A stretch of DNA of 27,155 nt, from contig MU633717.1 in NCBI GenBank assembly GCA_026770595.1, positions 1 to 27,155 of the forward strand, in the 5' to 3' direction. Both the position numbers and the translations under genes were made by a program. Shown here in pieces: positions 2,502 through 27,155 of the stretch (position 1 is the first letter of the stretch; the number at the start of each line of letters is the position of its first letter). Below the pieces are notes generated by a model. The model was not told where the DNA came from. It searched no databases and saw nothing but the letters and a program-made list of their open reading frames with translations. Source of the DNA: Ochromonadaceae sp. CCMP2298. Its lineage: Eukaryota > Sar > Synurophyceae > Ochromonadales > Ochromonadaceae.

Positions 2502-5500
2502 ATGTCGGGAATCTCCAAGAGCAAGGTCTATACCGAGGAAGTTCAGCCTGCGGCCATGAAATCGGCTCCCGGTAGTTCCAAGAGCAAGGGGTCGGAGGGC
2601 AGTTCGAAAAGTTCGAAAAGCAAGCTCGTGGGCGCCAGTACTGGAAATATAGACAATATGTTCCGCATGATGACCTCGGGGAAGACCCCGGAGAAGGGGA
2701 AGAAGCGGCGCCAGATGCTGACCTCTGCGCAGCTGTCCGCGCTCTTCTCTCGCCTAGATAAGGACGGAGACGGGGATCTGGACCTAGATGAGTTCACGGG
2801 CATTATCAAGATGCTGCACATGCACGTGACCCCCGACTACATCGCCAAGGTCTTCCGGGCGGTCGAGAACCCCTCCGAGGACGCCTACCAAGACCTACAG
2901 GACGTCAAGGGCACCCTAGATATTGAGCAGTTCATAAGCGCCTACCAGCTTATCTTTAGCGGGACGGAGAGGTCAGACCTCGGGGAGGGGGGCAAGGACG
3001 GCTTTGCGCGTGCGACGCGGTACGGCTGCGACGAGAAGGGCAACTACCTGTTCGAGTGCTATACGATCCACCCAGACGGCAGGGGTAAGAAGTTCACTCT
3101 GAGGGACATGCCCTCGGCGAGTACGAAGATGCACGAGCTGCAGAGGGAGGGCCTGCTGGAGAAGCTCAGCTCAGCAGAGACGCAGGAGTGGAAGGGCAGC
3201 CTGGAGGACGTTTCAGCCATGATGCACAGGGACGGACTGCGCAACGCACGCGACAAGTCGAAGATACTATGGTGGGTGGATCTGTCCTTCCTCGAGGTCA
3301 ATATGTCAGTCGCCGAGGAGCTCGTTGCGAATTTCGGCCTGCCCAACACCTCCAAGCTCATGAGCTGCTTCGGGAACTGGGGAGGGGCTCTGGGGGTAGA
3401 CCCCAAGACGCGCATGTATGCGGGGAAGGGCAGCTGCCGAGAGGGTTCGGTCTGGTCTTTGAGCGTGTTCGCACAGACGTTGTGGATGCAGCACCGTCCC
3501 GTGGTGCACCAGCTCCCCGTATGGATCGATGCATGGCAGGGCAGGGAGGTGGCCGACAAGACGCTGCTGGGCAGGTGCATAAGGCGGGCGGTGCTGTACT
3601 ACACCAGCAGGTTCAGCTGGATGTTCAACCTCAGCTGGACTAACAGCACTGCTGCGGATGAGCGCGCGGGGGCCTACGAGCGAGCCGCCGCTCTCGGGGA
3701 GGTGAGTTCCCCATTAACCCCATATACACCCATATCCCCCCTCAATTCTCCCATCGTGCATGATCTCACAACCCTCTCTCCACTCCCTTTACCCCTACCA
3801 GTTCATAAAGCGCACCGAAGACGAGGGCGACATCGAATCCGACGACGACACTGTGGACGTGGACTTCAAGCCCGACAGCACCATCTTCAGCACCAACGCG
3901 GAGGCCATGCCTCTCAGGGACGAGATTCGCTACGCCCGCGCACCTACCTGGCTCCCCTCCTCCACGAAGCTGTACAACTCCCCGCCGCGCATCCAGATCG
4001 ACACATGCTCCTTCCACATCCTGGACCACGGATACGGCGCGCACTCGCTGGTCACCGTGAGGCAGATAGATGCAGAGGGGCACCCGAAGAAGACGGACCT
4101 GGAGCAGCTCAGCCGCACTGGCACCGTGGGCAGAATATTGTCAGGGGTGTGGGCGCGCATGGCGGAGGTAAGTGTTGGTAGACGGCCCTGTACGACACCT
4201 ATGCGAGTACTGCACAGTGCCCCGACCTCGACTCACCACCCTTTCCTGCCTTGTCCCGTATCCCGTATGCCCCATCCCGTACCTTGTACCCTTACCGCAC
4301 CCCGCATGTAGGTCACTATGCTGGGTGGCAGTGCCTCCGTATCAGGAGAGCTCCTGGACAGCCCCGCCTCCGTTGCCACCCTGGCTCTGCTGGCCATGCA
4401 CACCTTCAGCATGGATTCATCCACCGGGCTGGACAACTGGCTGAAGCTGCTGGAGAAGGAGATCAAAGATGTCGTGGTGTCGAAGCACAGTAGCCACATT
4501 GACGAGGCGCGGCGCATGCTCAAAGGTAGGTTCCGCACAGCGCCTTGCTGTCGCGCCACTGAGTGACCAACCCCTCAACCCCTCTGATTCACCAATCCCT
4601 ATGATTTAATGTGCATCTCGTCTGTCTGTCGCGTGTCGTCTGTTCTCTGTTGCCTGTCCTCTGTAGAGTTCCTGGGGTACGTGGAGCCCATGGTGTCGCT
4701 ACTGCGCACCATGATGAACCAGCAGGCGGAAAAGATGCAGCAGGAGCTGGAGGAGGGGTACGCCGACGTGATCTCACACCCCACCGGGTCCTCGAAGATC
4801 TCCATGAAGAAGAGTAGTCCGCAGAAGGGGAATGATCTGCAGAAGGGTAATGATCCGGAGCGTCGTCAGGCATTCTCCGAGAACGTGGAGAAGGTGCCTC
4901 TGACCTTCGCCACTGTGGAGCCCTTCTTGGGGGTGGATTCCTACAGAGAGCTGCGTATGATTCTGGACGGGCACGAGCACATGAAGGGCCTGCTCTACTG
5001 GGAGGAGCGCTTGAAGAAGTACGGCAGCAAGATCGAAGAACTAAAGTCGCTCATCTCCGCGCAGCTGGACGAGAAGAGGAACTTCATGTACGTATGGCTG
5101 TATGGTGTATGGTGCATGGTGTGCGGTGTATGGTGTATGGTGTATGGTGTATGGTGTATGGTGTGCGGTGTGTATGATGAATGTACCTGCTCAGTCATAG
5201 CCGCAGCCCTCGTGTTCATAGCTGCTGCCCCTTCCCCACTTCCCCTTCCCTACTTCCCCCACCCCCCCACTTCTCCCCACCTCCTTTCTCTTCCCCCTCT
5301 TCCCCCTCTCCCCACCCAGGTCCTTCATGCTCACCATCATCACTACGGTGCTGGCCCCGCTGGCCTTGCTGACGGGCTACTTTGGGATGAACTTCGGTAA
5401 ATTTTATTTTATATAGCAAACACACATACACACATGCATACCTATGCACCCTCCACATTCACGCGCACACGTGCATAACAGTGCCCTCCGCATATTGCAT

Positions 5501-8349: not shown

Positions 8350-11300
8350 CTAATAATTATTACGCGTTCCACAATTTTCTGTGCCGAATCCGTGGAAGCA
8401 TTTACATACGCCCAAGCGGTGGTCGCACACGCCTTTGTTCGAGCAGTCCACGTGGCACAGGTTGCCCGAGCCCCCCACCTCGCTGCCCCCTGTTTGGATC
8501 TTCCCTTCGCAGTCTGTTTCAACCACTGTCGTGGTAGGGTCGTCACCAGTGGGGCAGCGCCTTTCTTCGCAGTTGGGTCCGAAGTACTCTGCCAGCTGCG
8601 TCTGCCCCGAGAGCAGGCCCACCTCCCAGGCCGAGTCGCACAGACACGAGTGCCCGAAGTTGACGTCCCACGCCGACTGCAGGGAATCGTTCGTGTTGAG
8701 GTATCGGACGACGCTGGAGCTCAGGGGCAGCGCATCCAGGCGCATGGATAGGCGGTTGATGGGCAGACAGCGTCCTACAACAACACAAGCACAAGCACAA
8801 AGCATGGTCAGTCAAGGCAAGTAGTGAAACAAATGCAGCGTTCTTACCTCTTCCTGAGCACTCAAATCCACCTTTGCGGTTTCCGCCACACAAATCCAGC
8901 TTTTGGCAGGCGTCTCCCCAGTACCCTGGCCTGCAGTCACAAGTGCCATTCACCCTAACATGACGTGGGGAAGAGAGAACAAAAGAGCAAAAGAGCAAAG
9001 CAAATTAAAAATTCGGCCGAACTTTAATTTGGTGTGTCGCTCTCCCCGTACCTGTTGCACAGCCCGGCATTCGAGCACTCCACCTCTCTGTGCATGAAGT
9101 TCTGCACGTCGTCGCTTCTGGGGACGAGGTTGTCGTGCAGCACCAGCGTGCCCATGGAGGGGCCCCAGGGACACACCTTGGAGGAGCAGTCGCTCGCGAA
9201 GTCTCCGTTTTTGAATCTGTTCAGGTCCTCCGCTGAGCCGTAGCCCTCCTTGCAGGTGCAGGAGGACGTGCAGTAGTCGCACTCCCCGTTGCCGCTGCAG
9301 TTGTTCTGGCAGCCCAGGCCGACAGCGTTAGCGGCTCCCACGGAGACCGAGTCTGAGTAGAAGTAGGTGGAGGCGGTGGAGATCTTGAGGTCTGGGGAGT
9401 TCTGGCGCAGGCCGCAGGTGGGTATGATGTGGTTTAGAGACTTGGGGATGTTTATCCACATGAGCGCGTTGTACGCCTGCAGGCCCAGGGCGGTGATCTC
9501 GATGCTAGAGGAGGCGTAAGCGTCTAGGAACGAGCCCTCATTCCATGTGGCGGAGAAGGAGAAGTTGGTGTTGGAGGTGACGCCGTACAGAGTTGCATCG
9601 TCGCCGTTGCTGATCATGTCTGATACTACCTCTTTCATCTTGTTGAGCCGATAGGCCCCCACCTTGTTGGTGAACCCGGGCAGGTGCAGGGTGATGACGG
9701 TGCTGGGTACTATCTCGTACCCCAACTGCAGCGTCACATTGATGCCAGTGAAGAACTGCTGCATGCTGTTGCTGAAGTGCAGCGAGCTCTCGTAGACGAA
9801 GCAGCGCTTGGGCAGGCTCTCCACCACATCGATAGTCCCCACGACGCCGCTGGTCTTCCCAAACGGGTTCACCACAACCTCCCAGGTGGTGCTCTGAGAG
9901 CAGCTGCGGCGGATGTTATTCGCTCTGTCGATCACCATCGTGTACGTCTTGGAGGAATCAAGGACGTCGCCGGTGATGACGAAGCGGAAGCGGGAGGAGG
10001 CGTAGCTGTCCAGATAGGTGCCCTCGGTGTAGGACACGGTGAACTTGTCTTCGTTCGGGACGGTGATCGAGTCGATGCTGTACCCATCCGTGGCGTTATA
10101 GCACGCCCCTGAGGTCATGCCTGGCGCATATATGGTGAAGTCTGAGCCCGCGGTGATGTTCTTGGTGAAGGAGATAGTGATCGTTATCTCCACGGGGTAG
10201 CAGGACGTCTCTGCGTCTGGCTCGAAGGTCACCATGCCCACCACGTTCACGTCCTCGAAAAAGGCAGTGGGGCTGAGTGTCTCGGGGATCCCGCCTGGGA
10301 ATGTGGGTCTGCGTGTGGGACTGCACGTGGGGATGCTGGTCGGTTTGCGCGTTGGTCTGTAGGTCAGCGTGGGTACTGAGGTAGGCTCAGCCTGAGGCTG
10401 TGCCGAGGGGACTGCCGAAGGCTGCGAACTCGGCTGAGAGGAGGGATGCGACGTAAGGGTGGGCGTCGGCGTGGGTTGTGGTGTGGGTGGCACGGTGGGG
10501 GTGCTGGAGGGCTGTCCAGTGGGCATCGTTGGCATGGACGAAGGCTGGCTGGACGGCTGTCCTGTGGGCGTGTCAGACGGCTGCGTGCTTGGCTGGCTGG
10601 TTGGCTGGCTGCTGGGCTGACTCGATGGGCTGTCGGTCGGTTGGCCAGTCGGTATGGAGGCGCTCACGGTAGGTACTGAGCTGGGCTGGCTACTGGGCTG
10701 GCCGGAGGGCTGTGCGGAGGGCTTGCCTGAGGGCTGGGAGCTGGGCGATGAAGAAGGCTTCCGGGTAACGGTGGGCTCAGCACTGGGTCTGGTAGTAGGC
10801 TGGCCGGAGGGGGCCATGGAGGGCTGCGTTGATGGCTGCGATGTGGGATTGGTGGACCATGTGGGATTGGGCGTAGGTTTGGGAGTGGGTAGCTTGGAGG
10901 GCGCAGAGGAGGGCTGTCCGGTGGGCCAGGTGGAAGGCTGCGACGAGGGCTGCGACGATGGCTGCGACGAGGGTCTGTACGTCGGCATCGATGGAGAGGG
11001 CGTGGGTTTGCTTGTTGGGAAAGCGGAGGGGTCGGAAGTCGGCTGGCCCGTGGGTTGGGAGCTGGGCTGAAAGGTTGGGTTCGAGGGAGCGAAGGTGGTC
11101 GGTCTCCGCGTGGGGGAAGCTGTCGGCTTCCGCGAAGGGGTTCGCGTTGGGGAGGATATGGGTGCCTTCGTGGGATTCAGGGAATATGAGGGGTGGCTCG
11201 TCGAAGGCGCTCGAGTGGGTTTGCCGGTCGTGGACGGTGAGCTGGAGGGCTGGCTCGTCGGCATGGTTGGCGAAGAGGAGGGCTGCGAGCTGGGCTGACT

Positions 11301-11666
11301 CGTCGGAGGCGAAAACGGCTGCATTGAGGGCTGCGATGAAGGTTGGCTGCTGGGCGACGATGAAGGCTGACTAGAGGGGAAAGGTGTGGGGTCCTTTGTT
11401 ACCGTCGGTTGTGAGGTTGGCTGGCTTGAGGGCAAATACGTTGGCTTGCTAGTCGGTGTGACTAGTGGCGTATGAGTTGGCGCAATAGTTGGTGGGCGCG
11501 ACGGTTTTGCTGTCGATGGCTTTTGAGTTGGTGATGCTGTCGTTGGTTTCTGAGTTGGCACAATAGTTGGTTGGCACGACGGTTTACTCGTTGTGGTTGC
11601 CGAACTCAAGCACCAGAGCACAACGACGAGCAAAAGCCGCAGCGCATTGTGCGAGCTCGCCACCAT
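8350..11666 (-). CDS. Secreted Pro/Ser/Thr-Gln stalk protein with duplicated domain and EGF-like modules
   Basis: This is a predicted extracellular or cell-surface protein of 1048 residues. Minus-strand exons are 11666-9052, 8954-8848 and 8774-8350. The ATG at 11666 is the first in frame, has a strong context (GCAGCC before ATGG) and starts a signal peptide (MVASSHNALRLLLVVVLWCL). Residues about 28-455 are a low-complexity stalk of PSSQPS/PTxQPT units, likely O-glycosylated. Two related all-beta-looking domains follow at about 465-640 and 620-775, both containing an EGT/SYLDxYASS-type motif. The C terminus is Cys-rich: NNCSGNGECDYC, VECSNAGLCNR, GTCDCRPGYWGDAC, and a final CHVDCSNKGVCDHRLGVCKC module with CPTGDDPTT upstream. 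This stalk plus Cys-rich layout recurs in diatoms, pelagophytes, brown algae and oomycetes. No transmembrane segment or GPI signal is evident. Function is unknown; an extracellular-matrix or adhesion role is inference. Confidence 0.82.
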
Positions 11667-12524
11667 GGCTGCCGTTGTCAGTGGAGCCGGGCCTCTCCTC
11701 TTTGCCGGAGACAGCTCGAAGACCTTTGGATCACGCGGCCTGAAGAGAAGAGCCACGAGAGAGGAGAAGAGCTTCGACTTTTTGGCAGCGAGACCCAAGA
11801 AAGAGACCGAACCGTTTTGCGGGGTGTGAAGTCCCTCCACCTCAACTGCTCAAGGCAGAGCGAATCGATAATTTTCTGTAACACTGATATTGGCATAAAA
11901 TCCCAAGTATTTTACAGTAAATGACGCCTACTATAGATATTTTTTGTATCACTAGAATTAGCATCTTAGCTATGTCTTGTAATGTAAATAACGCCTATTA
12001 TACATTAACCGATTATATTTTTGGGTTATATTATAATTTTAATTAAAAAGTCTTTTTTGCCTGCCAAAAGCGCCTAAATGAGAGATATTTTGCACAAAGT
12101 TCAATCTTTGCGACGAGAACTCGTTTCGAATTATCCTCGATTCGACTTCAAATTCTGGTTGCAGGTTTTTTGTGTCAAAATTTCTCTCATTTAGGCGCTT
12201 TTAGCCGTGATTTTTTAACCCTTTCCCTCTGGTGAAACTTTTTGGCTACCCTCAGATCTGAATGTACTGCGTACGTACAGTGATGTACTCTCGGAAAGGG
12301 TTAGCGTAACGGCGATTTCGGCACAACCAATCACACAGCGTCGAGACCGGCTTCGTCAGGTTGAAGCTCCCAGCAAGACCTGACCCCCAAAAGGCACCTT
12401 TGCACATGCATTGCGTTGCAACGAAGCGCAGCCCTGGATACAACTGAACACGGCGCGTTTGGTTTGTCGAGGTTGCCGCAAGCAGCTCATCAGTTCGAAG
12501 CTCTGCGCGGTCTGATCGGTCAGA
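11667..12524. promoter_or_regulatory. Divergent intergenic (promoter) region with MITE-like insertion
   Basis: These 858 bp separate the start codons of the minus-strand secreted protein and the plus-strand plastid protein, so both promoters must lie here. The part near 11860-12060 is very AT-rich. The MITE-like element sits at 12063-12206. An imperfect palindrome ACTGCGTACGTACAGT lies at 12267-12282, and AACCCTTTCCCTCT (12217) is partly inverted by GGAAAGGGTTA (12293). No core promoter element was assigned. Confidence 0.6.
12063..12206. mobile_element. MITE-like palindromic element, copy A
   Basis: This is a 144-bp non-coding element bounded by about 30-bp terminal inverted repeats. The left arm (12063-12092) contains AAAAGCGCCTAAATGAGAG and the right arm (12176-12206) its reverse complement; over the best 27 bases there is one mismatch. 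The interior includes CGTTTCGAATTATCCTCGAT, which is identical in copy B at 21858-22001. Two similar copies with inverted ends and no ORF fit a MITE. Target-site duplications are not clear. Confidence 0.8.
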
Positions 12525-15500
12525 ATGAAGTTTTATGTGTTCGTCCCGCTGCTGCTGGTCTGCCTCGTGCAGCTGGCTCTGGCGTTCCGTATGCCCAGCC
12601 ACAGATCATGGGCCTCTCTCCAGCACAGTTCGTCCCGGAGATTCGCGCTGTTGATCTCTCCGAAGGTCGGAGACGTGGTGGTTGCCGAGGTGGAGGACTT
12701 CGTGGGCACGATCAAAGACCCCGCCGTGTCTTTCTCGGTGCGTCATTGAGCCCTCGAAACAACCGAATGCGTCCAAGATGACTCACCTTACCTCTTAATC
12801 TCTATTTTCAAGCAGATCAGGCGCGAGGGTGAGTTGTTCAAGGCCGTCATGCCGACCAAGACGCTGTCGCCGAACGAGCGCCTGGCTCTGCAGATGGGCG
12901 CAGTCTTGCAAGTCAAAGTGGCGCGCGTGGACGACGACGGAAAGATCAACGTGAACTTCGACAGCTCCCGCGCCTCTGCATTTGAGGATGCTATTTTCGA
13001 GGACGCCCCTGTGCGCGTCAGCCCTGTCCTGCGCCCCCGCCGCATCACCGAGGTGCCCGCTGAGCGCCCGCCGCCCCCGGGCCCCCTGCTCAACAACCTG
13101 AAGACGGGAATGAAGCTGGAGGGCATGGTGGCTGCCAGCACCCCTTACGCGGCATTTATCAACGCGGGCGTGTTCCGGGCTGCGAAGGGCAAGAGCTACA
13201 CGGAGGTGAACGCGATGCTGCACAAGACGGACGTGGGCAGCGAGATGCTCAAGTCTCTGCGCAAGAACGTCCGCAAGGGCCAGAGCCAGCTGCTGGACAA
13301 GGGCACACTCGTGACAGTCTACGTGAAGGAGGTCTTCAAGCAATCGGGGCGCTTCACCGTGACCACCGATGCCGGTATCGAGAAAGCTAAGGTGATCGAG
13401 AGAAAGCAGCTCACCAAGGTTGAGGGCAATGAGAGACGGAGGTCCCGCAGGCTGCGGCGCCAGCTGGAAGGCGTCGTGGCTGGCAACACCGTGGAGGGCG
13501 TGGTGCAGCGCGTGGTGCCCGAGGGCGTGTTGGTCACTGTAACCTCTTTGGGTCCCCTGAACGTCACAGGACTGGTGAGCAAGCGGGACCTTCCCAAGCA
13601 GTTCGAGGTGCCCCCGGACCTTAAGGAGTCCTTCCAGGCGCAGCTGCTGGCCCAGGACTTCGCCCCCGGCCGCACCATCACCTGCGGTATCGCCAAGGTG
13701 CACCCCAACCCCAGTGTCTCTTTGGTGTACAACCTGAAGCTGCAGTTCGAGGAGTTCGGCGCGATGCCCGTGGACGACGTGGAGATCGTGGACAAGTTCG
13801 ACAGCATGTCCCAGGAGGACCAGGACAAGGTGGTGACAGAGCGTGTAGGCGAGGAAATCGAGGAGGACTTCGAGGAGGCCTTTGAGGAGGAGGAGGAGAG
13901 GGAGGAGGGGGAGGAGGACGGGGATGTGCTGGACATCTTCAACGCTTTGAAGAGCGAGGGCGGGGTCGTGTTGCTGGCGGATCTGCTGGACTGGGATGGC
14001 ATGCAGGATATGCTAGAGGAGGGGGAGATAACCAAGGCCGACTTCGACGCAGCCGTTAAGGAGGTGGGGGGTACTTCGAAGGGTCTGACTATGTCCCAGT
14101 TTACGGACTTCATCGAGATCATCCAGGACACGGTGCAGGACAACGAGGAGGCGGAGGACCTGCGCCCCTACAACGAAGATAACGACGCGATGGAGCAGGA
14201 GGAGGAGGAGGATGTGGATGTGGACGAGCTGGCGGAGCAGGTGGAGGAGATCGGTGCTGCTGCGGTGGCTGCGCAGAAGAAGGCCTCCACCCCGGTGGTG
14301 CCTGCGGTGAGCAGTGACGAGAGCGCGTTGAGCGGGGACGAGGAGGAGAACATCGCTGACGAGAGCCTGGCCGAGGTCACGCTCGAGCTGTTCAACGAGC
14401 TCAAGGGCGCCTCTCCCACGCTGTCTGTGAAGCAGTTCAAGGCGTGGGAGGACGTGAAGGAGCTGGTGCAGGCGGGTGTGATGGAGATGGCTGATGTGGA
14501 CGCTCTGGTCAAGCAGGTCACCCAGGGCAACACCATCAGCTACGACCAGTTCTTCGAGCTGATCGAGCTGATCGACGAGGCTTCTCTGGAGTCATCCATG
14601 GACGACGACGAGGAGGAGGAGGAGGAGGAGGAGGAGGAGGAGGAAGAAGAGGTGGTGATGGTGCAGCCCAAAGCCAAGGCTTCCAAGACCCCCGCCGCCG
14701 CCCCCGCCCCCGCCTCTGAGGAGGAGGAGGAGGACTTCGAGGAGAACGAGGAGAGCTTCGAGCTGCTGCTGCAGGAGATCTTCGACGAGCTCAAGGGTGC
14801 GGACGGACAGCTCTCAGTGAGCACCTTCAAGGCCTGGGACGACGTGCAGGACATGGTGGAGAACGGCATTATCCAGGAAGCCACTCTCGACGCACTCATC
14901 GGCGAGGTCGTGCAGGAGGAGGGGCTCTCGGTGCCGGTCGACTCGCTGTCAATGGACTTCGAGCAGTTCAGCGCGCTGGTGGGGCTGCTGGACGAGGCAG
15001 CGGGCATGATGGATGGCGACGAGGACGAGGGGGGGGACGATGAGGAGGCGGAGGAGGAGGAGGAGGGGGATGTGAGCGGCGAGCTGATCGAGTCCGAGGA
15101 GGAGGTGACGAGAGAGGTGTTCAACGAGCTGTGCAATGAGAACCAGCTCGTGCCGGTGAAGGACTTCCTCGCCTGGGACGAGCTGCAGGAGCTGATGGAG
15201 GGGGGCTTCTTGGACGCAGACAGCATCAACGTGCTGCTGGAGGAGGTGGGGACCACTAGGAAGGGCACGCTTACCTTCGAGCAGTTCCAGAACCTCCTAG
15301 GCATGATCGACGACGCCACTGCGGCTATGATGGACGAGGACGAGGGGGACGACGACGAGGACGATGAGGAGGAGAATGAGGAGGTTCTCCACGTCGCCTC
15401 CAGCTCCAGCGTAGATGAGCGCGACGCTAAGGTCCAGAAGCCCCGTGCCATGCCCAACCCCACTATCAACCGAGTAGAGGAGGATGAGGAGGAGGAGGAG

Positions 15501-17540
15501 GAGGAGGAGATGCCCACAGAGGAGGAGCTGGTGCAGATGGCTGAGGGCATATATGAGGAGCTCAGGCCTAAGGGGCCCAAGGGCAAGAAGGGCGTGCCCG
15601 TCGCGGCCTTCCTCAACTGGGAGAGCATCAAGGACGAGCTGGCTGAGGGTAGTCTGCAGAAGGAGGACGTGGACCGGGTGCTGCGGGAGGTGGACAGTGG
15701 GAAGACGGGCTATTTGACTCTGGCGCAGTTCATGCAGGCGATGGAGCAGCTGGAGGATATTATGGACCAGGCAGAGGGAGAGGAGCAGTTCGTATTCGAG
15801 GCAGAGGAGGATGAGGAGGAGGAGGATGATGAGGAGGAGGAGGAGGAGGATGATGAGCCTACTGAGGAGGAGCTGAGGGAGATGTCGGCTGCGGTGTTTA
15901 AGGAGCTGAGGCCCAAGGGGTCCAAGACCGTACCCGTGGAGGCATTCCTGGCCTGGGACAGCGTGCAGGACGAGCTGGCAGAGGGAAACCTGCTGCCCTC
16001 CGATGTGACCAAGGTGATGAAGCTGGTGGACAAGAAGGGCAGCGGGCAGCTGACTCTGGACATGTTCGTGCAGGCTATGGACCAGATGGAGGAGATCATG
16101 GAGGTGCGGTTCCTGGAGAATGCAGCGGCCGAGGACCTCGAGGAGGAGGAGGTGGAGGTACCGGTCAAGAAGGGCAAGGGCAAGGAGGCACCCGCACCCA
16201 AGGAGGCCGCACCCAAGCAGCCCAAAGCTGTGCTGAAGGCGGTGGAGACCACTGCGTCCGGCACTGGCTTCGGCAAGAGCACTGAGGAGATCAGCGCGGC
16301 CAAGAAGGCCAAGTCGGCTGCCAAGGGGGACGAGAATGGGGAGGAGATAGAGTCCATGACGAGCGACATCTACGACGACCTGAGGGGCAAGGGCAAGACG
16401 CTGAGTGTGAAGAGTTTCAAGGAGTGGGACGAGCTGTCGGATATGATCGAGTCGGGGGCGATGAAGAGAAGCTCTCTGGAGAAGGCGCTGATGAAGGCGG
16501 GGTGCCTGGAGACCGGCCAGATGACTCTGCAGCAGTTCTCCAAGGTTCTCGACTTCGTGCAGGCCACTGTGGACGTGTCCAGCCTCGGCGGGGCGTTGGA
16601 GGATCTGGAGGCGGAGGGTGAGACGGGTCTGCAGGGTCTGCGGTCCTCCAAGAACTCGCAGGTCATGAACCCAGACCTGGACCTGGACGAGACGGACGAG
16701 GAGGACGAGGACATGGACATGGAGGACATCGACAGCGAACAGAGCGAGGAGGAGGGCGCTAGGGAGATCTACGACGAGCTCAGGGGGGCCGCGGAGACGC
16801 TCAATGTCGGTCAGTTTCTGCGCTGGGACGACGTGCAGGAGCTGCTGTTGTCGGGCGCACTGACCAAGGACGACCTGGCCCAGGCTATCGAGAACTGCGT
16901 GTCGGAGATCGACTCCGGGGACGAGAGCGTCCTGACCTTCGAGACCTTCTACGACCTCGTGCAGGTCATCGACGAGTATGTGAACACCGACCTGCTGCCC
17001 GACTCGGACGGGGAGGAGCTCCTAGTGGAGAAGAGGCTGGTGGCGGGCGACGACGTGGACGAGGTGATGGGCATCATCGACGACTTCGAGGAGGGTGAGG
17101 GGGTGACCAAGATCTCCTACAAGCAGGCGGACGGCGAGCTGCTCAAGGGCGACGCTGCTGTGACTGCGATGGAGGCAGCCCTGGAGCAGATGGAGGAGGA
17201 CGACGAGCAGAGCACTGCTAGCGAAGAGGAGGTGCTGGAGATGTTCGAGGAGCTGGCCAAGGGCAAGAGCTACATCACCGAGAAGGCGCTCAGGAGGTGG
17301 GACGAGCTGCAGGAGCTGGTGCAGGCCGAGCTGGCCACGCAGGAGATAATCGACTCCTACTTCCGGAAGCTGGACATACAGGGGGGGCGGGTGGACCTGC
17401 CTACCTTCCAGAGGTTCGTGGAGATGCTGGACACCGTGCTGGTGGATGGGGGGGGCAACCTGCTGGGCCTGGATGACATCGACAGGGCGATCGACGTTGA
17501 TGGCCTAGACATCGACGATGATGAGGAGGAGGACGAGTAG
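12525..17540 (+). CDS. Plastid-targeted S1-domain protein with nine EF-hand-like repeat modules
   Basis: Exons are 12525-12737 and 12816-17540 (phase 0), giving 1645 residues. The N terminus MKFYVFVPLLLVCLVQLALAF is a signal peptide with Phe after the predicted ALA cleavage site, then a Ser/Arg-rich transit-like stretch (HRSWASLQHSSSRR); this matches secondary red plastid import signals. Residues about 45-430 hold S1/OB-fold-like segments, for example KVGDVVVAEVEDFVGTI, LKTGMKLEGMVAASTPYAAF and VAGNTVEGVVQRVVPEGVLV. From about 443 to 1615 there are nine modules of about 70 residues, starting near 443, 592, 722, 836, 979, 1094, 1253, 1385 and 1543. Each has the pattern (I/V)(F/Y)xEL, a central F-x-x-W-(D/E)-x-(V/L/I) motif and a final (L/M)T-x-x-x-F. 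Acidic Glu/Asp linkers separate them. S1 folds bind RNA, so a plastid translation or RNA role is inferred. The modules resemble degenerate EF-hand pairs, but most lack full Ca2+ ligand sets. Confidence 0.85.
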
Positions 17541-19935: not shown

Positions 19936-20358
19936 GACCCCTCCCCCCCTTCACGGCTCCATCTACGTCGAATCCTGCCCTGCCCAGGCGCGTTAGGGCA
20001 CGAGAGACATCGACAAAACGATTCCCAGCATCACACTTGTCCACAGCTCACTCAGTGTGGATTGAGCTTAGTTATGGTGTTAGGTTCCTACCCGTAGGTG
20101 TCCCTGAGAAACCTGAGAGCCTCCAAAAACCTGTACCGGTACCACATTACTGACACAGGTAGTATACAATTTTTACACAAACGGCGTTAAAAAAGAAACG
20201 TCTTTTACCGGTAGGATATCTGGGAGGGAAGGGAGATTGTGGATTGCATTCTTGCATTGGCTCTACATAATCCAAGCGAGGCAGCGTCTGAGAGCACTCT
20301 CTTACCCTCAATCTATTTCTCTGGTACGCGCTGGTGGCTTGCTCGAGATTTGGAAAGC
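19936..20358. promoter_or_regulatory. Divergent promoter region between Trm11-like gene and hisC
   Basis: These 423 bp separate two divergent start codons and must contain both promoters. A short upstream frame (ATG at 20074, seven codons, stop at 20095-20097) precedes hisC if transcription starts early enough. ACCGGTA-type hexamers occur near 20135 and 20207. No core element was identified with confidence. Confidence 0.5.
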
Positions 20359-21444
20359 ATGGCCCAATTTGCAAGTTTTGATCTGTCCAAGGTGGCACGA
20401 AAGAACATCCTCGAGCTGGCTCCCTACCGGTGCGCAAGAGATGACTACAGCGAAGGTGTACTACTCGATGCAAACGAGAACAGCTTTGGACCAGCAGTTA
20501 CGTCTCACGCCCACCTTGCGTTGAACCGCTATCCTGACCCGCTGCACTACGAGGTCAAGCAGCCTCTCGCGGAGCTCAGAGGAGTGAAGAAGGAGCAGAT
20601 CTTCATGGGCGTGGGCAGCGACGAGGCCATTGACATTCTCTTCCGCATCTTCTGCGATCCCGGCAAGGACAACGTTGTGATCACGCCGCCCACTTACGGG
20701 ATGTACAAGGTGTGCGCCAAGGTCAACGACGTGGCCTACAAGGAGGCACCGCTCACCCCGGAGTTCGACGTGGACATGCCCACCACCCTCGCCGCGATCG
20801 ACGAACACACCAAGCTGGTTTTCTTGTGCTCTCCGGGTAACCCCACCTGCAAGGTGATCCCGAACAGTGTGGTGGAGGAGGTTCTGGCGAGCTTCGGCGG
20901 CATCGTGGTGGTGGACGAGGCCTACATCGACTTCAGCGGCACCGAGTCCGCCTGCAGCCTGGTGGCCAAGTACCCCAACGTCGTCGTGCTGCAGACGCTC
21001 TCGAAGGCCTTCGGGCTGGCGGGCATTCGACTGGGCATGGCCTTTGGGGACGAGGCGGTGATCCAGCTGATGAACAACGTCAAGGCGCCCTACAACGTCA
21101 ACAAGCTCACCGCAGAGGTCGCCCTGGAGGGACTGAAGGACCAGACGCTATACCGCTCAAACGTGGCCAGCATCCTGTTGGAGCGCGGGTACCTCCTGCA
21201 GCAGCTGCAGGCCCTGCCCCAGGTGAAGAAGATCCACCACACGGACGCCAACTTCATCCTCTTCGTCGTGCCCAAGGCGCTCGAAATTTACAAGATCATG
21301 GCCGATAGGGGCATCGTGTGCCGGTATCGGGGCTCCGAAATGAACTGCGCATCATGCCTGCGGCTTACGGTGGGCACGCGCACGGAGAACGACGCCTTTA
21401 TCGCGCTCTTCAACGCAGTCATGCAGGAGCTGGGCGTGGAGTAG
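20359..21444 (+). CDS. hisC: Histidinol-phosphate aminotransferase
   Basis: This PLP enzyme transaminates imidazole-acetol phosphate to L-histidinol phosphate in histidine synthesis. The 361-residue intronless frame starts at the first in-frame ATG (A at -3, G at +4) and fits the family length of about 350-360. Class I/II aminotransferase hallmarks are seen: LDANENSFGP near the N terminus, the turn GVGSDEAIDIL, PTYGMY, SPGNPT, Asp186 in VVVDEAYIDF that contacts the pyridine nitrogen, and the Schiff-base Lys216 in TLSKAFGLAGIRLG. LRLTVGTRTEND at the C terminus carries the substrate-carboxylate Arg. The sequence pattern is HisC rather than a general aspartate aminotransferase. No transit peptide is encoded from this ATG. 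The frame is open upstream to about 20239 but has no earlier ATG, so a plastid pre-sequence would need an unseen 5' exon. Confidence 0.95.
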   Translation: MAQFASFDLSKVARKNILELAPYRCARDDYSEGVLLDANENSFGPAVTSHAHLALNRYPDPLHYEVKQPLAELRGVKKEQIFMGVGSDEAIDILFRIFCDPGKDNVVITPPTYGMYKVCAKVNDVAYKEAPLTPEFDVDMPTTLAAIDEHTKLVFLCSPGNPTCKVIPNSVVEEVLASFGGIVVVDEAYIDFSGTESACSLVAKYPNVVVLQTLSKAFGLAGIRLGMAFGDEAVIQLMNNVKAPYNVNKLTAEVALEGLKDQTLYRSNVASILLERGYLLQQLQALPQVKKIHHTDANFILFVVPKALEIYKIMADRGIVCRYRGSEMNCASCLRLTVGTRTENDAFIALFNAVMQELGVE

Positions 21445-22178
21445 GCGAGTGAGTCCATAGCCAAATATGATACTGCTCTGTCGAAGTCAACCTGGATAGA
21501 ATATTTATGGATTCTTCGAAAGTGCTGTAGGTTTGGGCCAGCCGGTGGGTTGGGTGGGGTCCCCCGCTTCCCCGGGGAGGTTGCATGACAGGGTGGCTGA
21601 ATTAAGCTGTGGACCCACCCACAAGTGTTCCTGTATCTTACGTGAATATTGTAAGGAAAAAGAAGATGGCTAGATCCTCAGGCGTTGGTATTTACAGTAT
21701 CCTTATATCCGGCTTCCTTTCCGGCCAAAACAAAGACAGATAAAAAGGCCCTCTAAAATTAGAACAGTTAGAAACTCCAGCCAATTTCATCGTGAATCCG
21801 CTCACCTGCCGAAGGGTAGCCAAAACTCCAGAGGCCAAGGTTATTCGTTTTTTGCCTGCCAAAAGCGCCCAAATGAGAGATATTTTGCACAAAATTCTGT
21901 TTCTGCGACTAGAATTCGTTTCGAATTATCCTCGATTCGACTTGGAATTCTGGTTGCGGGGTTTTCTGTATCAAAATATCTCTCATTTAGGCGCTTTTGG
22001 CTGTGAAAAAATAACCCGTGTTTCACTAGAAAGTAACCGTTGTGGCACCAAACAGACGACCAACAGAACTGCAGAAGTGGGCAAGCATTGCCTCAACAAG
22101 GGGTACAGTTTGCACTTCCCTGGGATCGCGCTCCCCTGTCGGTGTCGTGGCAGCTGCAAGGATCTGGCGGGAATCAGA
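21445..22178. other. Intergenic region 5' of the NlpC/P60-TTLL gene
   Basis: These 734 bp contain MITE-like copy B (21858-22001) and, directly left of it, GGTAGCCAAAACTCCAG (21815-21831) and GGTTATTCG (21839-21847), which match the partial repeat near 27006-27067. The frame of the downstream gene is open from about 21792 on, across the repeat, apparently without a coding reason. Confidence 0.7.
21858..22001. mobile_element. MITE-like palindromic element, copy B
   Basis: This is a 144-bp element in the same orientation as copy A. Left arm 21858-21887 and right arm 21972-22001 are inverted repeats with one mismatch in the best 27 bases (AAAAGCGCCCAAATGAGAG versus AAAAGCGCCTAAATGAGAG). The interior shares CGTTTCGAATTATCCTCGAT with copy A. 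Shared similarity to copy A extends a few bases outwards (TTTTTTGCCT on the left, TAACCC on the right). Confidence 0.82.
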
Positions 22179-24749
22179 ATGGAACAGCCGAAAGAGCAGA
22201 ACAACGAGAACATGGAAAATAGAGTCAAGCCGAACGCCGGCGAACTGCTCATTATTGGCGATGAGGGTCCCGCGAATAAGGCCAGCCTGCAGGATAACTT
22301 CGCCAAGTTCCGCGACCAGAAGATGAAGGAGCGAAAGCTCATGAAGGCCTGTCGCTCTGCCGCGCTGGCTGGGGGACGAACAGAGGATTTCAAGGGTCAG
22401 CTAAGAATAAAGTTCGTCGAGCAGGCCAAGCGCTACGTCGGTGTGCCTTACGGCATCAAGTACAAGAAAGAGGAGGACCCTGTGGCACCTTTGTACTTGG
22501 ACTGTTGTGGCCTGGTACGTCAGTGCGTGCAGGATCTGCAGGAGGACTTTGGCTTCGTGATTGGCAAATGGAACCAAGCCTACCAGATGGACACCCTGCC
22601 CGTCGTGCTCACACAGGCGGAGCTCAAGCCCGGCGACTTGATCTTCTACGAGGGAAAATACAAGTCCAATCGATCCAAGGAACAGAAACACAATAACGTG
22701 CACGTTGAAATATACCTCGGGGGCGAGACAGGCGAGGCCACTATCGGCTCTCGCTTCCACCGCGGCAACGTGTCCGTCTTTCCCTCCTACAAGTTTGACT
22801 CCAGCACGTGGGAGCTGCAGCAGTACCACTTCCGCTCTTTGGACACGTGGCTGGGCGGTGAGTGCGTGTCGCACTGCTCTGAGCATGTGTGGCACAGTGA
22901 CTCTCTCAACTACGTCGAGGCCGCAGGGCGTAAGTCCATCTTTAGCTCGCAGGAGCAGGAGGACTGCTCTGCGGGCGGCGAGGAGCAGGACGAGGAGGGC
23001 GGGGGGGACGATGAGGACCAGGGCGGGGGAGAGGGCGAGGGGGATGATGATGGGCCCGTCCCGATGCCCGGGCCCACGCCATCTGCTGAGCCTGAGATGC
23101 ACCTGGAGGCGGATGCGGAGGCAAGCGACACAGCAGAGAGCAAACCCAATACTAGCATCAGCGTCAAGAAGCCCAAGCGCGTGTCGGCATTCAGCAAGGA
23201 AGGGGCCTCTACCTCTACCTCTACCTCTGCCTCGGGAAAACTGCCGCGCTCGGTGAGCCGCACTGCCGCTCAGGAGAGCTCCCTGGCCGCCCTGTCCAAG
23301 TCGAACAAGGAGGGCGGTGCGAGGTCCTACTACCTGGGCAAGGCTAACGGCTGGAAGATCGTGCGCGACGCGATGACCAAGCGTGGCTGGACGATGATGC
23401 CCTCAGAGTACCACTTCTCCAACCGCTACGGGCTGAAGTGGGTGGAGCGGCGCAACCAGATCGACTACCTCGCGCATGTGCCGGGGCAGCTCGTGTGCCA
23501 CATCCCCAACAACGACATCCTGACCACCAAGATCGGGCTGCTCTGCACCATGCGGGAGAAGTTCTGCCGCCAAGTGGGCAGCAATGCGCGGGTGCACCCC
23601 CCCTGGCTGCCCCACACATACGATCTCGAATCCCCCGCTGACTGCTTGTCTCTCATCGCCGAGGAGGAGCGTCTAGCCAGCGGCGCCGCCAGCTCCAGAA
23701 CCCGTCCCCCAGAACCCGCCGCCGACCTGAAGGTGGGGCCGCCGCAGAGCCCTGTAGACCCTCTTAAAGCCGCGGAGGGCCCGGAGGAGGCAGATGCCGA
23801 GGCCCAGCAGGCAGACGACGAGGACGAGTCGGCAGGCAAGGTGGGCAGCGACATCAAGGGCGGCATCTGGATCTACAAACCCTCCTGCGCGAACCGCGGG
23901 CGCGGAATACGCGTGGTCACTGGAGTGGAGGAGCTGAGAGAGCTAACGGTGGGGCAGGTGATGGGCAGCGACCCGGACGGTATGCGCATCCCCTACAAGG
24001 GCATTGTGCAGAAATACATCCGCAACCCGCTACTGCTCACGCCAGAGGGCTACAAGTTCGATATTCGCGTCTACCTGCTGGTGGCCCGCAACTACCCCAC
24101 GACTTTGGCCTTTTACCACCCCGGCTATGTGCGCATGGCTCTAAAGCCCTACTCTGTGGCCACGAAGGAGTCTCTGGAGGACGAGTGCGTGCACCTGACA
24201 AACGCGTCTATTCAGAAGAAACACACCGTCTACAAAGAGGAGGGCAACAAGGAGGCGCAGGTGCAGGGCATCGAGGCCATAGCGAAGGGCCTAGACGATA
24301 TAGGCAAGAGCGACAGCGCGGAGTACATGCGCAACACGCTGGACCACGAGATAAAGCTGTGCCTGGTGGACCTGCTCAAAGCCTCCAACCACATATTCCT
24401 CAAGAGGCACGGGTACTTCGACCTGCTGGGGTGTGATTTCATGCTCTCTGCGAGCAACAAGCTCTCCCTGCTGGAGGTCAACACCAACCCCGCACTGACG
24501 CTGGACAACTCCACGCTGGCCAACATGCTCCCCGGGGTGGTGGACGCCACGATCGAGCTCGTGATGCAGTCCCAGGGTCCCGACCGCCGCATCACTGACC
24601 CAGACGACTTCCTCAAAAGCTCTCTGGCGGGTGGGTACCAGCTCATCTTCGACGAGGGCGCCGGTTATATGTACAAGCCCACGCGCAAAGGTAAGTCCAC
24701 CAAGGCCAAGGCTGCAACAGAGGCACAGGCACCGGAACCGAAGGCATGA
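22179..24749 (+). CDS. NlpC/P60 peptidase-like domain fused to tubulin-tyrosine ligase-like (TTLL) domain
   Basis: This is an intronless protein of 856 residues from the ATG at 22179 (A at -3, G at +4). Residues about 80-225 look like an NlpC/P60 papain-like fold: VGVPYGIKY, Cys109 in YLDCCGLVRQ as nucleophile, KPGDLIFYEG, then His175 in VHVEIYLGG; the third polar residue could be His194. Residues about 255-345 are acidic, Gly-rich and Ser-rich linker. The TTLL ATP-grasp domain follows at about 370-820: WIYKPSCANRGRGI (from Trp564), VQKYIRNPLL, KFDIRVYLLV (626-635), HLTNASIQK (from 672) and the Mg2+/ATP site LEVNTNPAL with Glu766 and Asn768. TTLL enzymes ligate Tyr, Glu or Gly to tubulin and other proteins; which one applies here is not clear. 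The frame is open upstream through a MITE-like element, with an in-frame ATG at 21873, so a longer product cannot be excluded. Confidence 0.85.
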   Translation: MEQPKEQNNENMENRVKPNAGELLIIGDEGPANKASLQDNFAKFRDQKMKERKLMKACRSAALAGGRTEDFKGQLRIKFVEQAKRYVGVPYGIKYKKEEDPVAPLYLDCCGLVRQCVQDLQEDFGFVIGKWNQAYQMDTLPVVLTQAELKPGDLIFYEGKYKSNRSKEQKHNNVHVEIYLGGETGEATIGSRFHRGNVSVFPSYKFDSSTWELQQYHFRSLDTWLGGECVSHCSEHVWHSDSLNYVEAAGRKSIFSSQEQEDCSAGGEEQDEEGGGDDEDQGGGEGEGDDDGPVPMPGPTPSAEPEMHLEADAEASDTAESKPNTSISVKKPKRVSAFSKEGASTSTSTSASGKLPRSVSRTAAQESSLAALSKSNKEGGARSYYLGKANGWKIVRDAMTKRGWTMMPSEYHFSNRYGLKWVERRNQIDYLAHVPGQLVCHIPNNDILTTKIGLLCTMREKFCRQVGSNARVHPPWLPHTYDLESPADCLSLIAEEERLASGAASSRTRPPEPAADLKVGPPQSPVDPLKAAEGPEEADAEAQQADDEDESAGKVGSDIKGGIWIYKPSCANRGRGIRVVTGVEELRELTVGQVMGSDPDGMRIPYKGIVQKYIRNPLLLTPEGYKFDIRVYLLVARNYPTTLAFYHPGYVRMALKPYSVATKESLEDECVHLTNASIQKKHTVYKEEGNKEAQVQGIEAIAKGLDDIGKSDSAEYMRNTLDHEIKLCLVDLLKASNHIFLKRHGYFDLLGCDFMLSASNKLSLLEVNTNPALTLDNSTLANMLPGVVDATIELVMQSQGPDRRITDPDDFLKSSLAGGYQLIFDEGAGYMYKPTRKGKSTKAKAATEAQAPEPKA

Positions 24750-25084: not shown

Positions 25085-26773
25085 CTACAGCTCCACATCC
25101 TCGTCGGGCGCTCCGATCTCCTTCAGGTACTTGGTGACTGGGTGGTCTTCCTCGAGGTAGTGCTTGGCGATCCACATGGCCGCTCCGCCTGAGAGCACCT
25201 TCTCGCTCGTGTCCGCGCCCAGGTCGATCAGCAGCTTCACAGTGTCAAGGGAGCCGCTGCGCACCGCCTCGTGCAGCAGCTGCCACTCGTTCTCGTCCTT
25301 GTTGTGGATGAGGTGGATGTGCTGAGTGTCTAGAAGGCGCTTCAGCTGGTCGAAGTCTCCGTCAGAGGCAGCGTCGCGTATGGCCCCCTCCATGGCCGTG
25401 TTCTTAGAGCCCACCGCATCCGCTATCTCGTTCGCCGCCTCTTTCATCATAGCGCGCTCTTGTTCTAGGTGCGTCTCGTCAATCCCGTGTAGATGCTCGG
25501 GGCCTGAGCGATCGCGCGCAGCTACTGGCGTGAAACTCCTGTGGAAACGGGAATCAGAAGGCGCGCGCACTGGCAGCTTGCGCTTCGCGATGATCTCCTT
25601 GAGCGCCTCAGTTTTCGCTGCCGCCTCAGCAGCAGACTTGGCCGCCGCCTCCGCCGCAGCATCTGCCACAGAGGCGTCAACCTTCAGGCGCAGCGCCTCG
25701 TGTGGGTCCTTCTTCCCGAGGGCGGCGGCCAGCAGCTCTTCGCTGTCTATGGCGGCCAGGTGCAGCTTCACGTGGTCCTCGTCGTGGTTGTCCTGCTCAT
25801 GGCCGCCCACGTTTTTGGCCCTCATGCTAGGAATCAGCATCCCCAGCAGGCTGGAGCTGCTCTTGGCCTTATTCAGTTTGTTCATGGCTATCCTGGCCGT
25901 CTCCTGCTCCTCGGCGTCCACCAGGTTCATCTTCGAGTGGTCCACGGGCTGGAAGTGCACAAAGAGGTTCGCGTAGCTGCGGCCCACCAGAGGGAAGGGT
26001 CTGCCGTGCATGACTGTGTGGCTCTCGTAGAGCACCATATCTCCCGGCTGCATGGTAACGTTGTAGGCCTTGCCTGCGTGGCTGTACACCTCGATGGGCC
26101 AGGGCTCGTCCACGTCCTGCGCCACCTGGATGATGCAGGAGGACACCAGCGGAAGCCTGTCCACGTGCGTGGAGAGCATTGCCCCAGAGTTGTACACGCG
26201 CACTCCGTACATGGAGGTGGGCTCGAGCTGGTGGCCGGTCCACTCCTCCAGGATGGGTTTCACGGTCTCCCAGACGAGCGACTTGAGGTCCTGCCCCCCT
26301 CGCAGCTGACGGTCCTCCAAGCTAACCATGGACGTCTTCGAGTCCCAGTGATTCACATACGTGTTACCGCGGGGCCAATTCTCGGGCTTGACGTTGTCTT
26401 TATTTCTCTCGAACCATTCCAACAGCGGCTCCCAGGCAGTCTGCGGGCACTTCAACTTCTTGAATCCGATGTCGGTGTAGTTGTGCTGATGCGGGGGCTG
26501 GTCTCTGTTCATCTGCAACCGCGCGCGCTCAGTTGCATCGCACTCCCTTTTGCTGTATATATCGTAGCAGCCCTGCATCATCTTTTCATAACGGAGCTTC
26601 CCAACGGGAGCTTTCTTCGCGTCGAGGTAGTAGTGAATGGGAAAGCTGACGTCCACCCCGTAGTCAGCGGGTTCTGCAGCTGCAGCAGCATTATCTCCAC
26701 CTGCCAGAACGTAGTGATCCTCGAAATGAAGCAGCAGGCAGATCGCCAATACGGTACGCGAAGCGAAATTCAT
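25085..26773 (-). CDS. Secreted prolyl 4-hydroxylase-like 2OG-Fe(II) oxygenase with ankyrin tail
   Basis: This is a 562-residue intronless gene. The ATG at 26773 is the first in frame and begins a signal peptide (MNFASRTVLAICLLLHF), placing the enzyme in the ER or secretory path. The oxygenase domain (about 110-275) contains NHWDSKTSMVSLED, YGVRVYNSGAMLSTHVDRLPL with the iron ligands His203 and Asp205, and MVLYESHTVMHGRPFPLVGRSYANLF with distal His256 and the 2-oxoglutarate-binding Arg265. This is the P4H alpha-subunit pattern, with Arg in place of the usual Lys. An Ala/Glu/Lys coiled-coil-like stretch (about 365-395) leads to ankyrin repeats near 480-550 (WQLLHEAVRSGSLDTVKLLIDLGAD). Such enzymes hydroxylate proline in wall or matrix proteins; the Pro-rich secreted protein in this window would be a plausible kind of substrate, which is inference only. 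Confidence 0.87.
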   Translation of the reverse strand: MNFASRTVLAICLLLHFEDHYVLAGGDNAAAAAEPADYGVDVSFPIHYYLDAKKAPVGKLRYEKMMQGCYDIYSKRECDATERARLQMNRDQPPHQHNYTDIGFKKLKCPQTAWEPLLEWFERNKDNVKPENWPRGNTYVNHWDSKTSMVSLEDRQLRGGQDLKSLVWETVKPILEEWTGHQLEPTSMYGVRVYNSGAMLSTHVDRLPLVSSCIIQVAQDVDEPWPIEVYSHAGKAYNVTMQPGDMVLYESHTVMHGRPFPLVGRSYANLFVHFQPVDHSKMNLVDAEEQETARIAMNKLNKAKSSSSLLGMLIPSMRAKNVGGHEQDNHDEDHVKLHLAAIDSEELLAAALGKKDPHEALRLKVDASVADAAAEAAAKSAAEAAAKTEALKEIIAKRKLPVRAPSDSRFHRSFTPVAARDRSGPEHLHGIDETHLEQERAMMKEAANEIADAVGSKNTAMEGAIRDAASDGDFDQLKRLLDTQHIHLIHNKDENEWQLLHEAVRSGSLDTVKLLIDLGADTSEKVLSGGAAMWIAKHYLEEDHPVTKYLKEIGAPDEDVEL

Positions 26774-27155
26774 TGTCTGGATTGGCCAAGAAGTACAACA
26801 CACAGCACAACGTTGTTCGAGCCGAGGTTGGAGCGGGGAGTCAGTTGGCGATGGGCTCCCAACAGAGATCTGGCACCTTTGTCTCTGTAGATCAGTGTCG
26901 CTCGTTCCCTATGTGAGGATCATGGTTAACGGAGGTCAATGGAGGTCAAAGCTTCCCAGTTGGTGTGCCCCCAAAACTTCCGCTCCACCACCTGCTGCCC
27001 CAGCGTAGCCAAAACTCCAGCCAAAAAAACGAATAACCCTTTCCCTCTAGAGGCTGGAGTTTTGGAGGGCCGCTCACCTTTCTCCCTCAAACGGCGGACT
27101 TCTGCAGCTGTCACCCGCAGACGGTAACCGCCGGAAGCTCGGTTTCAGCTGTCTC
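26774..27155. other. 5' flank of the oxygenase gene, running to the window edge
   Basis: These 382 bp hold the presumed promoter of the minus-strand oxygenase gene. A short direct repeat (GGAGGTCAA, 26932 and 26941) and the partial repeat element at 27006-27067 are visible. No ORF here looks real. Confidence 0.55.
27006..27067. repeat. Short inverted-repeat element related to the outer end of MITE-like copy B
   Basis: CCAAAACTCCAGCC at 27009-27022 is perfectly inverted as GGCTGGAGTTTTGG at 27052-27065. Between them lies CGAATAACCCTTTCCCTCT. The reverse complement resembles 21818-21860 (CCAAAACTCCAG, then GGTTATTCG and TTTTTT), while AACCCTTTCCCTCT also follows copy A at 12217. It looks like a solo terminal part or a smaller relative of the same family. 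Confidence 0.7.

Follow-up and report, generated by a model that had tools for sequence, protein, structure and literature searches.

The polyglycylase TTLL10 elongates glycines on the gamma-linked branch-point glycines made by TTLL3 and TTLL8, according to passages of PMC12340829, and the marks made by TTL and TTLL ligases are erased by separate proteins, the CCPs, TMCP and the vasohibins (PMC10318531, PMC11244163). Among these erasers CCPs and TMCP are carboxypeptidases, and the vasohibins are papain-like cysteine peptidases that a cited reference title calls transglutaminase-like. NlpC/P60 enzymes of the YkfC type cleave next to gamma-linked D-Glu, and the S1 sites of NlpC/P60 enzymes are described as tailored to gamma-D-Glu (PMC2954226). 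In the glutathionylspermidine (Gsp) and trypanothione synthetase-amidases, an amidase of papain-like (CHAP) type is joined to a synthetase, and the trypanothione enzyme is described as one chain that makes and cuts the same product (PMC2784880). Here, a gene joining an NlpC/P60 domain to a TTL-type ligase is described from the flagellated ochrophyte alga Ochromonadaceae sp. CCMP2298 (Ochromonadales; assembly GCA_026770595.1, contig MU633717.1), at positions 22179..24749 of the plus strand of a stretch of 27,155 nucleotides, hereafter the window.

The TTL half of the algal protein groups with a TTLL10-named protein of Intoshia linei and conserves the ATP-grasp residues, whereas the N-terminal NlpC/P60 domain is missing from the Intoshia protein. 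The fold, the catalytic Cys and His and the active-site Tyr and Asp are shared with the NlpC/P60 peptidoglycan endopeptidases (RipB, YkfC / dipeptidyl-peptidase VI, MepS), but the algal pocket is altered, a third catalytic residue is not identifiable and the domain is joined to a tubulin-type ligase. Likeness to the Gsp and trypanothione enzymes lies in architecture only: their amidase and synthetase belong to other families, their product is a small molecule, and the E. coli Gsp amidase appeared as an insignificant Foldseek row (E 0.73).

Architecture, conservation and distribution of the fusion

The protein (P0001) has 856 amino acids and is translated from an uninterrupted frame with an ATG at 22179, which sits within a longer open frame (21792-24749, plus strand). 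Its layout comprises the NlpC/P60 domain (residues 80-225), a disordered linker (residues 259-377) and the TTL-type ligase (residues approximately 380-835). Transcripts and conservation carry the claim of an NlpC/P60-TTLL fusion. The two-domain chain occurs as transcripts in distant eukaryote groups, and both domains lie in one open reading frame (ORF) in the transcripts of relatives (P0003, P0004, P0060, P0104, P0105, P0115, P0116, P0121 and P0277), so the single protein put forward in a preliminary description of the window, made from its letters and reading frames, is well supported over two separate genes. A search for the same architecture elsewhere found near full-length homologues; the Spumella elongata transcript (P0003) covered 97% of the query at 63% identity, and Triparma strigata and Ectocarpus fasciculatus (partial) were the other named carriers, with more in transcripts and metagenome proteins.

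The full-length search assigned scores to the 7993 candidates with the most words in common with the query and accepted lengths of 0.55-1.75 times the query, with short NlpC proteins falling outside; it found 180 homologues, the best 120 of which were listed and aligned. Of the 108 aligned proteins whose NlpC domain is complete, P0001 among them, 107 contained TTL sequence, but the length window keeps this figure from being read as a rate. Both active sites (Cys109, His175, Lys626, Glu766 and Asn768) were intact in all 76 sequences complete for both domains, P0001 again included. In 74 of 75 comparisons with P0001, likeness was higher in the NlpC core than in the catalytic part of TTL (medians 65.8% vs 49.8%), which speaks against a decaying, passive or merely structural appendage. 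Judged from these sequences, the NlpC-TTL pairing is old and the family spans distant eukaryotes; to our knowledge, all named carriers are flagellated or ciliated at some stage.

A search with the NlpC part among proteins of about 110-345 amino acids gave 196 matches. Among the best 120 listed were short proteins at approximately 50% identity from Andalucia, Cafeteria (P0183), Carpediemonas (P0184), Blepharisma (P0188), Lottia (partial), Giardia muris (P0208) and Spironucleus (P0214). All 11 short rows chosen (seven named, four transcripts) keep Tyr91, Asp108, Cys109, Cys110, His175, Glu177 and Arg192. They are read as separate NlpC proteins, though their gene models may be cut. The Andalucia godoyi protein (P0168, 292 amino acids) is named 'tubulin-tyrosine ligase family protein', yet it contains the NlpC domain and no TTL domain is visible in it; the name was probably transferred from a relative with the fusion.

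Pattern scans gave 61 matches in viral contigs and 35 in GTDB species genomes; none was confirmed by tblastn as a relative and no close prokaryotic relative was found, in scans with short patterns, some from the TTL part, that were confirmed against a 236-amino-acid NlpC piece and that distant homologues could escape. On these scans, a recent transfer from bacteria or viruses was rejected. A paper on diplomonads treats NlpC/P60 genes as horizontally acquired wall-degrading enzymes and, in the sections seen, is silent on an NlpC-TTLL family (PMC11437800).

Assignment of the two domains

The NlpC/P60 domain core (22416..22853) was marginal by sequence profile score: Pfam NLPC_P60 (PF00877) gave 20.5 bits for the whole protein against a cut-off of 23, 23.5 bits for the domain alone and 23.9 bits in a six-frame search. 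Because of this marginal score, the assignment needed other evidence. An NlpC-only alignment was built from the window piece and 58 rows selected, for completeness of the domain, among the best 120 of the 196 matches. Exons or pieces of fused genes may be among these 58, and a TTL motif is seen in P0132 and P0133. All 59 domains matched PF00877 at E ≤ 0.1, and the profile made from them picked out solved proteins named dipeptidyl-peptidase VI (E 2.3e-8), in which the catalytic Cys and His line up. The AlphaFold2 model of residues 21-256 had core blocks at a predicted local distance difference test score (pLDDT) of 90-98, and each of the top 18 rows of its Foldseek search against the PDB was either an NlpC/P60 protein or a complex of MepS, itself an NlpC/P60 enzyme. 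The NlpC/P60-like domain of the preliminary description is therefore upheld by the match of this profile and by a predicted fold for residues 80-225 that is papain-like and of NlpC/P60 type.

The catalytic order is a Cys after an Asp, then a His, aligned to the solved enzymes. Asp108-Cys109-Cys110 (22500..22508), with Cys109 as predicted nucleophile in the context LDCCGLVR, was found in 108/108 and 59/59 sequences at each position. His175-Val176-Glu177 (22701..22709; context HVEIYLG) holds the predicted catalytic base His175, and His175 and Glu177 were likewise in 108/108 and 59/59. The residue numbers first given for Cys109, His175, Glu766 and Asn768, with their contexts, were correct. Tyr91 in the motif GVPY (22449..22451; 108/108) aligns with the Tyr found in the active site of NlpC/P60 enzymes (Tyr226 in YkfC), and Arg192 of Gly190-Ser191-Arg192 (22746..22754) was present in 108/108. 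LRAT and YiiX types are permuted papain folds. Such a fold was considered on account of a weak PF05708 match and rejected: the stretch matched in P0001 (residues 54-100) includes neither catalytic residue, and the order Cys before His and the structural matches fit the unpermuted NlpC/P60 fold. Ahead of the domain, a conserved N-terminal helix (residues 37-63, 22287..22367) carries the alignment consensus SLQxxFxKFRxxKxxER and is helical in the model. Behind it lies the low-complexity linker (22953..23309), predicted to be disordered with pLDDT < 50 for residues 259-373 and 375-377.

The ligase half begins with the TTL N-terminal/central part (residues 381-462, 23319..23564), marked by conserved columns and by a structural match starting at residues 378-381. 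The ATP-grasp catalytic domain (residues 550-795, 23826..24563) scored 148.4 bits with Pfam TTL (PF03133) against a cut-off of 20.1. Lys626, Asp628, Arg630, Glu766 and Asn768 were each found in 82/82 sequences, which upholds the TTL domain and the residues Glu766 and Asn768 first described as its Mg2+ site. When solved structures were ranked with a four-row profile of the TTL part, the TTLL3 glycylase came first (144.8 bits), followed by TTL (92.5-119.4 bits), TTLL6 (105.6-109.0 bits), TTLL7 (103.2 bits) and TTLL11 (74.7 bits).

The phylogenetic tree had four references, which we take to be human TTL (8asn), Xenopus TTL (3tig) and Xenopus TTLL3 (5vlq), together with a paralogue from the same algal genome; mammalian TTLL10 and the glutamylases TTLL6, TTLL7 and TTLL11, as well as P0118, P0244 and P0114, stood outside it. 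The TTLL10-named Intoshia linei protein (P0304) paired with the two-domain P0277 at a support of 98/96 (41% over 417 amino acids), and 20 rows including P0304 were split from TTL and TTLL3 at 100/98, where long branches meet according to a program warning. The NlpC motif was seen in 17 of the 19 rows of the NlpC-TTL group (P0271 and P0243 being without it), whose base has no resolution and in which P0290 is a long branch. Four more proteins named by the Joint Genome Institute (P0089, P0255, P0317 and P0320), among at least 120 listed of the 284 matches of the TTL-part search, also read TTLL10. The ligase half is TTLL10-like on these comparisons and looks like a tubulin polyglycylase.

The paralogue is a second TTL-family locus on another contig (C58, 5810-9598) that scored 213.7 bits with TTLL3 vs 94.8 bits with the best TTL, has long insertions and is likely a copy of the TTLL3-type initiase. 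One fusion locus and one further TTL-family locus were found in the assembly of 11.2 Mb in 724 contigs, and these counts are lower bounds. A protein filed as 'archaeon' (P0301, EON65_24955) was 53% identical to the algal TTL query and likely comes from a eukaryotic contig mislabelled as archaeal.

Proposed function, alternative explanations and genomic surroundings

The reading we prefer, at a rough probability of 45%, is a bifunctional polymodification enzyme in which the TTL half adds side chains and the NlpC half hydrolyses the same kind of chain. The TTL half would add glycine, or less likely glutamate, to glutamate-rich tails, most likely those of axonemal tubulin, and would elongate chains begun by a TTLL3-type initiase, for which the C58 locus is the likely genomic copy. 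The NlpC half, tethered to the ligase by the long flexible linker, would use the Cys109 thiolate and His175 to hydrolyse side chains of the same kind. Cleavage would fall at the gamma-glutamyl branch point, whose chemistry resembles that of the gamma-D-glutamyl bond in bacterial NlpC/P60 substrates, or within the glycine chain. Chain length would then be set by synthesis and cleavage in one protein. In favour of this economical reading stand the intact active sites of both halves, the greater likeness of the NlpC core, the two-domain transcripts of distant groups and the TTLL10-like traits of the ligase, with trypanothione synthetase-amidase as a precedent for opposed activities within a single protein. 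The preliminary description had a ligase that adds amino acids to tubulin or other proteins; the ligase has held as TTL-type and is narrowed to TTLL10-like, while its coupling as writer plus eraser is something we infer.

Several observations weigh against the bifunctional reading, beginning with the pocket. In YkfC the triad is Cys238, His291 and His303, and the gamma-D-Glu site is formed by Tyr226, Trp228, Asp237, Ser239 and Ser257, with the free amine held by Asp256 (PMC2954226). Profile alignment to YkfC relatives showed that Tyr226 (Tyr91) and Asp237 (Asp108) are kept, and that Ser239 is replaced by Cys110, Trp228 by the variable residue 93, Asp256 by Gly129 and the small residue 257 by Lys/Arg130 (Arg in 58 and Lys in 42 of 108). 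With these four positions replaced, the pocket is, by alignment, not that of a standard gamma-D-Glu enzyme, and the residues of the YkfC / dipeptidyl-peptidase VI subfamily (Asp256, Trp228 and Ser239) are missing. No canonical third catalytic residue was seen in profile alignments that stop short of its position; position 190, placed there by hand, is Gly in 105/108 and Ala in 3/108. The altered pocket, and Gly190 at about the place held elsewhere by a third polar residue, suggest that the substrate of the domain is probably not murein and that cleavage proceeds by a dyad or with an unusual third residue. A basic residue at position 130 would suit an acidic tail. Of the gamma-linkage-type peptidase first proposed, Tyr91 and Asp108 speak in favour while the Trp, the Ser by the nucleophile, the YkfC Asp and the third residue do not; such activity is plausible from the residues kept.

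The substrate and the ligase class bring further counterpoints. In tubulin the branch-point Glu is an internal residue of L configuration, which sets it apart from the bacterial substrate. For Giardia, where a short NlpC protein occurs, a reference title reports deglycylation of 14-3-3 by two metallocarboxypeptidases (PMC3962474), and the amidase of trypanothione synthetase-amidase runs at < 1% of the synthetase rate in two species, as given in PMC2784880. Scored one at a time, the sequences give no clear class: P0001 reaches 76.5 bits with TTL and 71.7 bits with TTLL3, P0304 alone gives TTLL3 79.1, TTL 77.3 and TTLL6 74.5 bits, and TTLL6 ranks first by structure for the whole model (Foldseek and VIA). 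The TTLL10 label comes from depositors' names, with no mammalian TTLL10 among the proteins compared. The animal (Intoshia) TTLL10 used here has no NlpC domain, which makes the domain dispensable for TTLL10.

The best surviving alternative, though a rather unlikely one, is that the NlpC half pre-processes the substrate or acts on a different protein, the two halves sharing a location and not a bond. It might expose an acceptor glutamate, or it might cut a partner other than tubulin, for example a 14-3-3-like protein. The short NlpC proteins of Giardia muris, Spironucleus, Carpediemonas, Cafeteria and Blepharisma suggest that the domain may work apart from a ligase, polyglycylation acts on 14-3-3 in Giardia (stated in PMC3962474), and the S1 pocket is unlike that of gamma-D-Glu enzymes. 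However, the recurrent pairing with one ligase class in distant groups suggests a common substrate. We also know of no precedent for pretrimming among TTLLs.

It is more doubtful still that the NlpC half is a non-hydrolytic reader, its fold kept for binding gamma-linked side chains and steering the ligase. Such a role would fit the third catalytic residue not being seen, and the structural neighbours include RipD, whose title presents it as an NlpC/P60 protein that is non-catalytic and adapted to peptidoglycan binding; but loss of the nucleophile in some lineages would be expected of a domain that only binds, and Cys109 and His175 are kept in every sequence of both alignments. Equally doubtful is that the ligase half adds not glycine but glutamate or some other amino acid, so that a peptidase would be paired with a polyglutamylase or another TTLL. 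The rank of TTLL6 as best Foldseek and VIA match, the score of P0001 for TTL above TTLL3 and the NCBI name of a protein fragment from the contig, 'tubulin-tyrosine ligase/Tubulin polyglutamylase', favour this; the four-row profile and the tree, as given above, lean towards a glycylase.

That fragment (P0291, Ochromonadaceae sp. CCMP2298, partial, 197 amino acids) agrees with the frame except for one 17-residue gap, at residues 591-607 (window 23949-23999), left out as though an intron. Spumella P0003 has residues that correspond to this stretch, which makes the call of an intron look mistaken. Although this partial record could hint at an artefact, with two genes joined or a spurious frame in the contig, that explanation is scarcely credible given the uninterrupted frame and the Spumella counterpart, and the single-ORF transcripts of relatives contradict both an artefact and a split gene.

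Around the fusion gene, a class I/II aminotransferase frame (20239-21444, plus strand; PF00155, E 2.3e-61) lies just upstream, and a frame of 572 amino acids (25085-26803, minus strand) shows ankyrin repeats towards the C-terminal end (PF13637, E 3.9e-7). Two long open frames on the plus strand showed EF-hand matches, above the EF-hand_7 cut-off at 12834-17540 and below the EF-hand cut-offs at 2502-4181, the latter being just above the EH domain cut-off. A frame of 938 amino acids (9024-11840, minus strand) is rich in PT disordered repeats (PF04886, E 1.2e-33) and lies in a stretch of strong GC skew, and the contig end (1-100) carries a short tandem repeat of GTGTATG-like units. A promoter and terminator scan, not designed for eukaryotes, gave promoter-like sites at chance level and no terminator kind.

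Novelty and meaning of the pairing

A ligase and a papain-like hydrolase in one chain are known, and no description of a TTLL or tubulin tyrosine ligase paired with NlpC was found in open-licence full texts, a scope that leaves out Iyer et al. 2009 on amidoligases. The Triparma protein carries the database name 'NlpC/P60 domain-containing protein'; names of this kind indicate that annotation pipelines have met the domain, with no sign of the pairing having been studied. Passages of a 2024 paper speak of 'unidentified deglycylases' for tubulin (PMC11244163), and a 2025 preprint discusses how the length of polyglycine chains may be limited 'independent of a deglycylating enzyme' (PMC12340829). 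A wider idea, which we hold to be somewhat unlikely, is that this NlpC/P60 domain is a long-missing eraser of tubulin side chains, a widespread eukaryotic deglycylase or branch-point isopeptidase that is a short protein in several flagellates, while stramenopiles and other groups have it fused to TTLL10, its own writer. If this idea is true, the length of axonemal side chains would be set by a single chain that both writes and erases. The fusion of a TTLL10-like ligase, in distant eukaryotes, with a conserved cysteine peptidase whose superfamily cuts gamma-glutamyl bonds offers a concrete deglycylase candidate.
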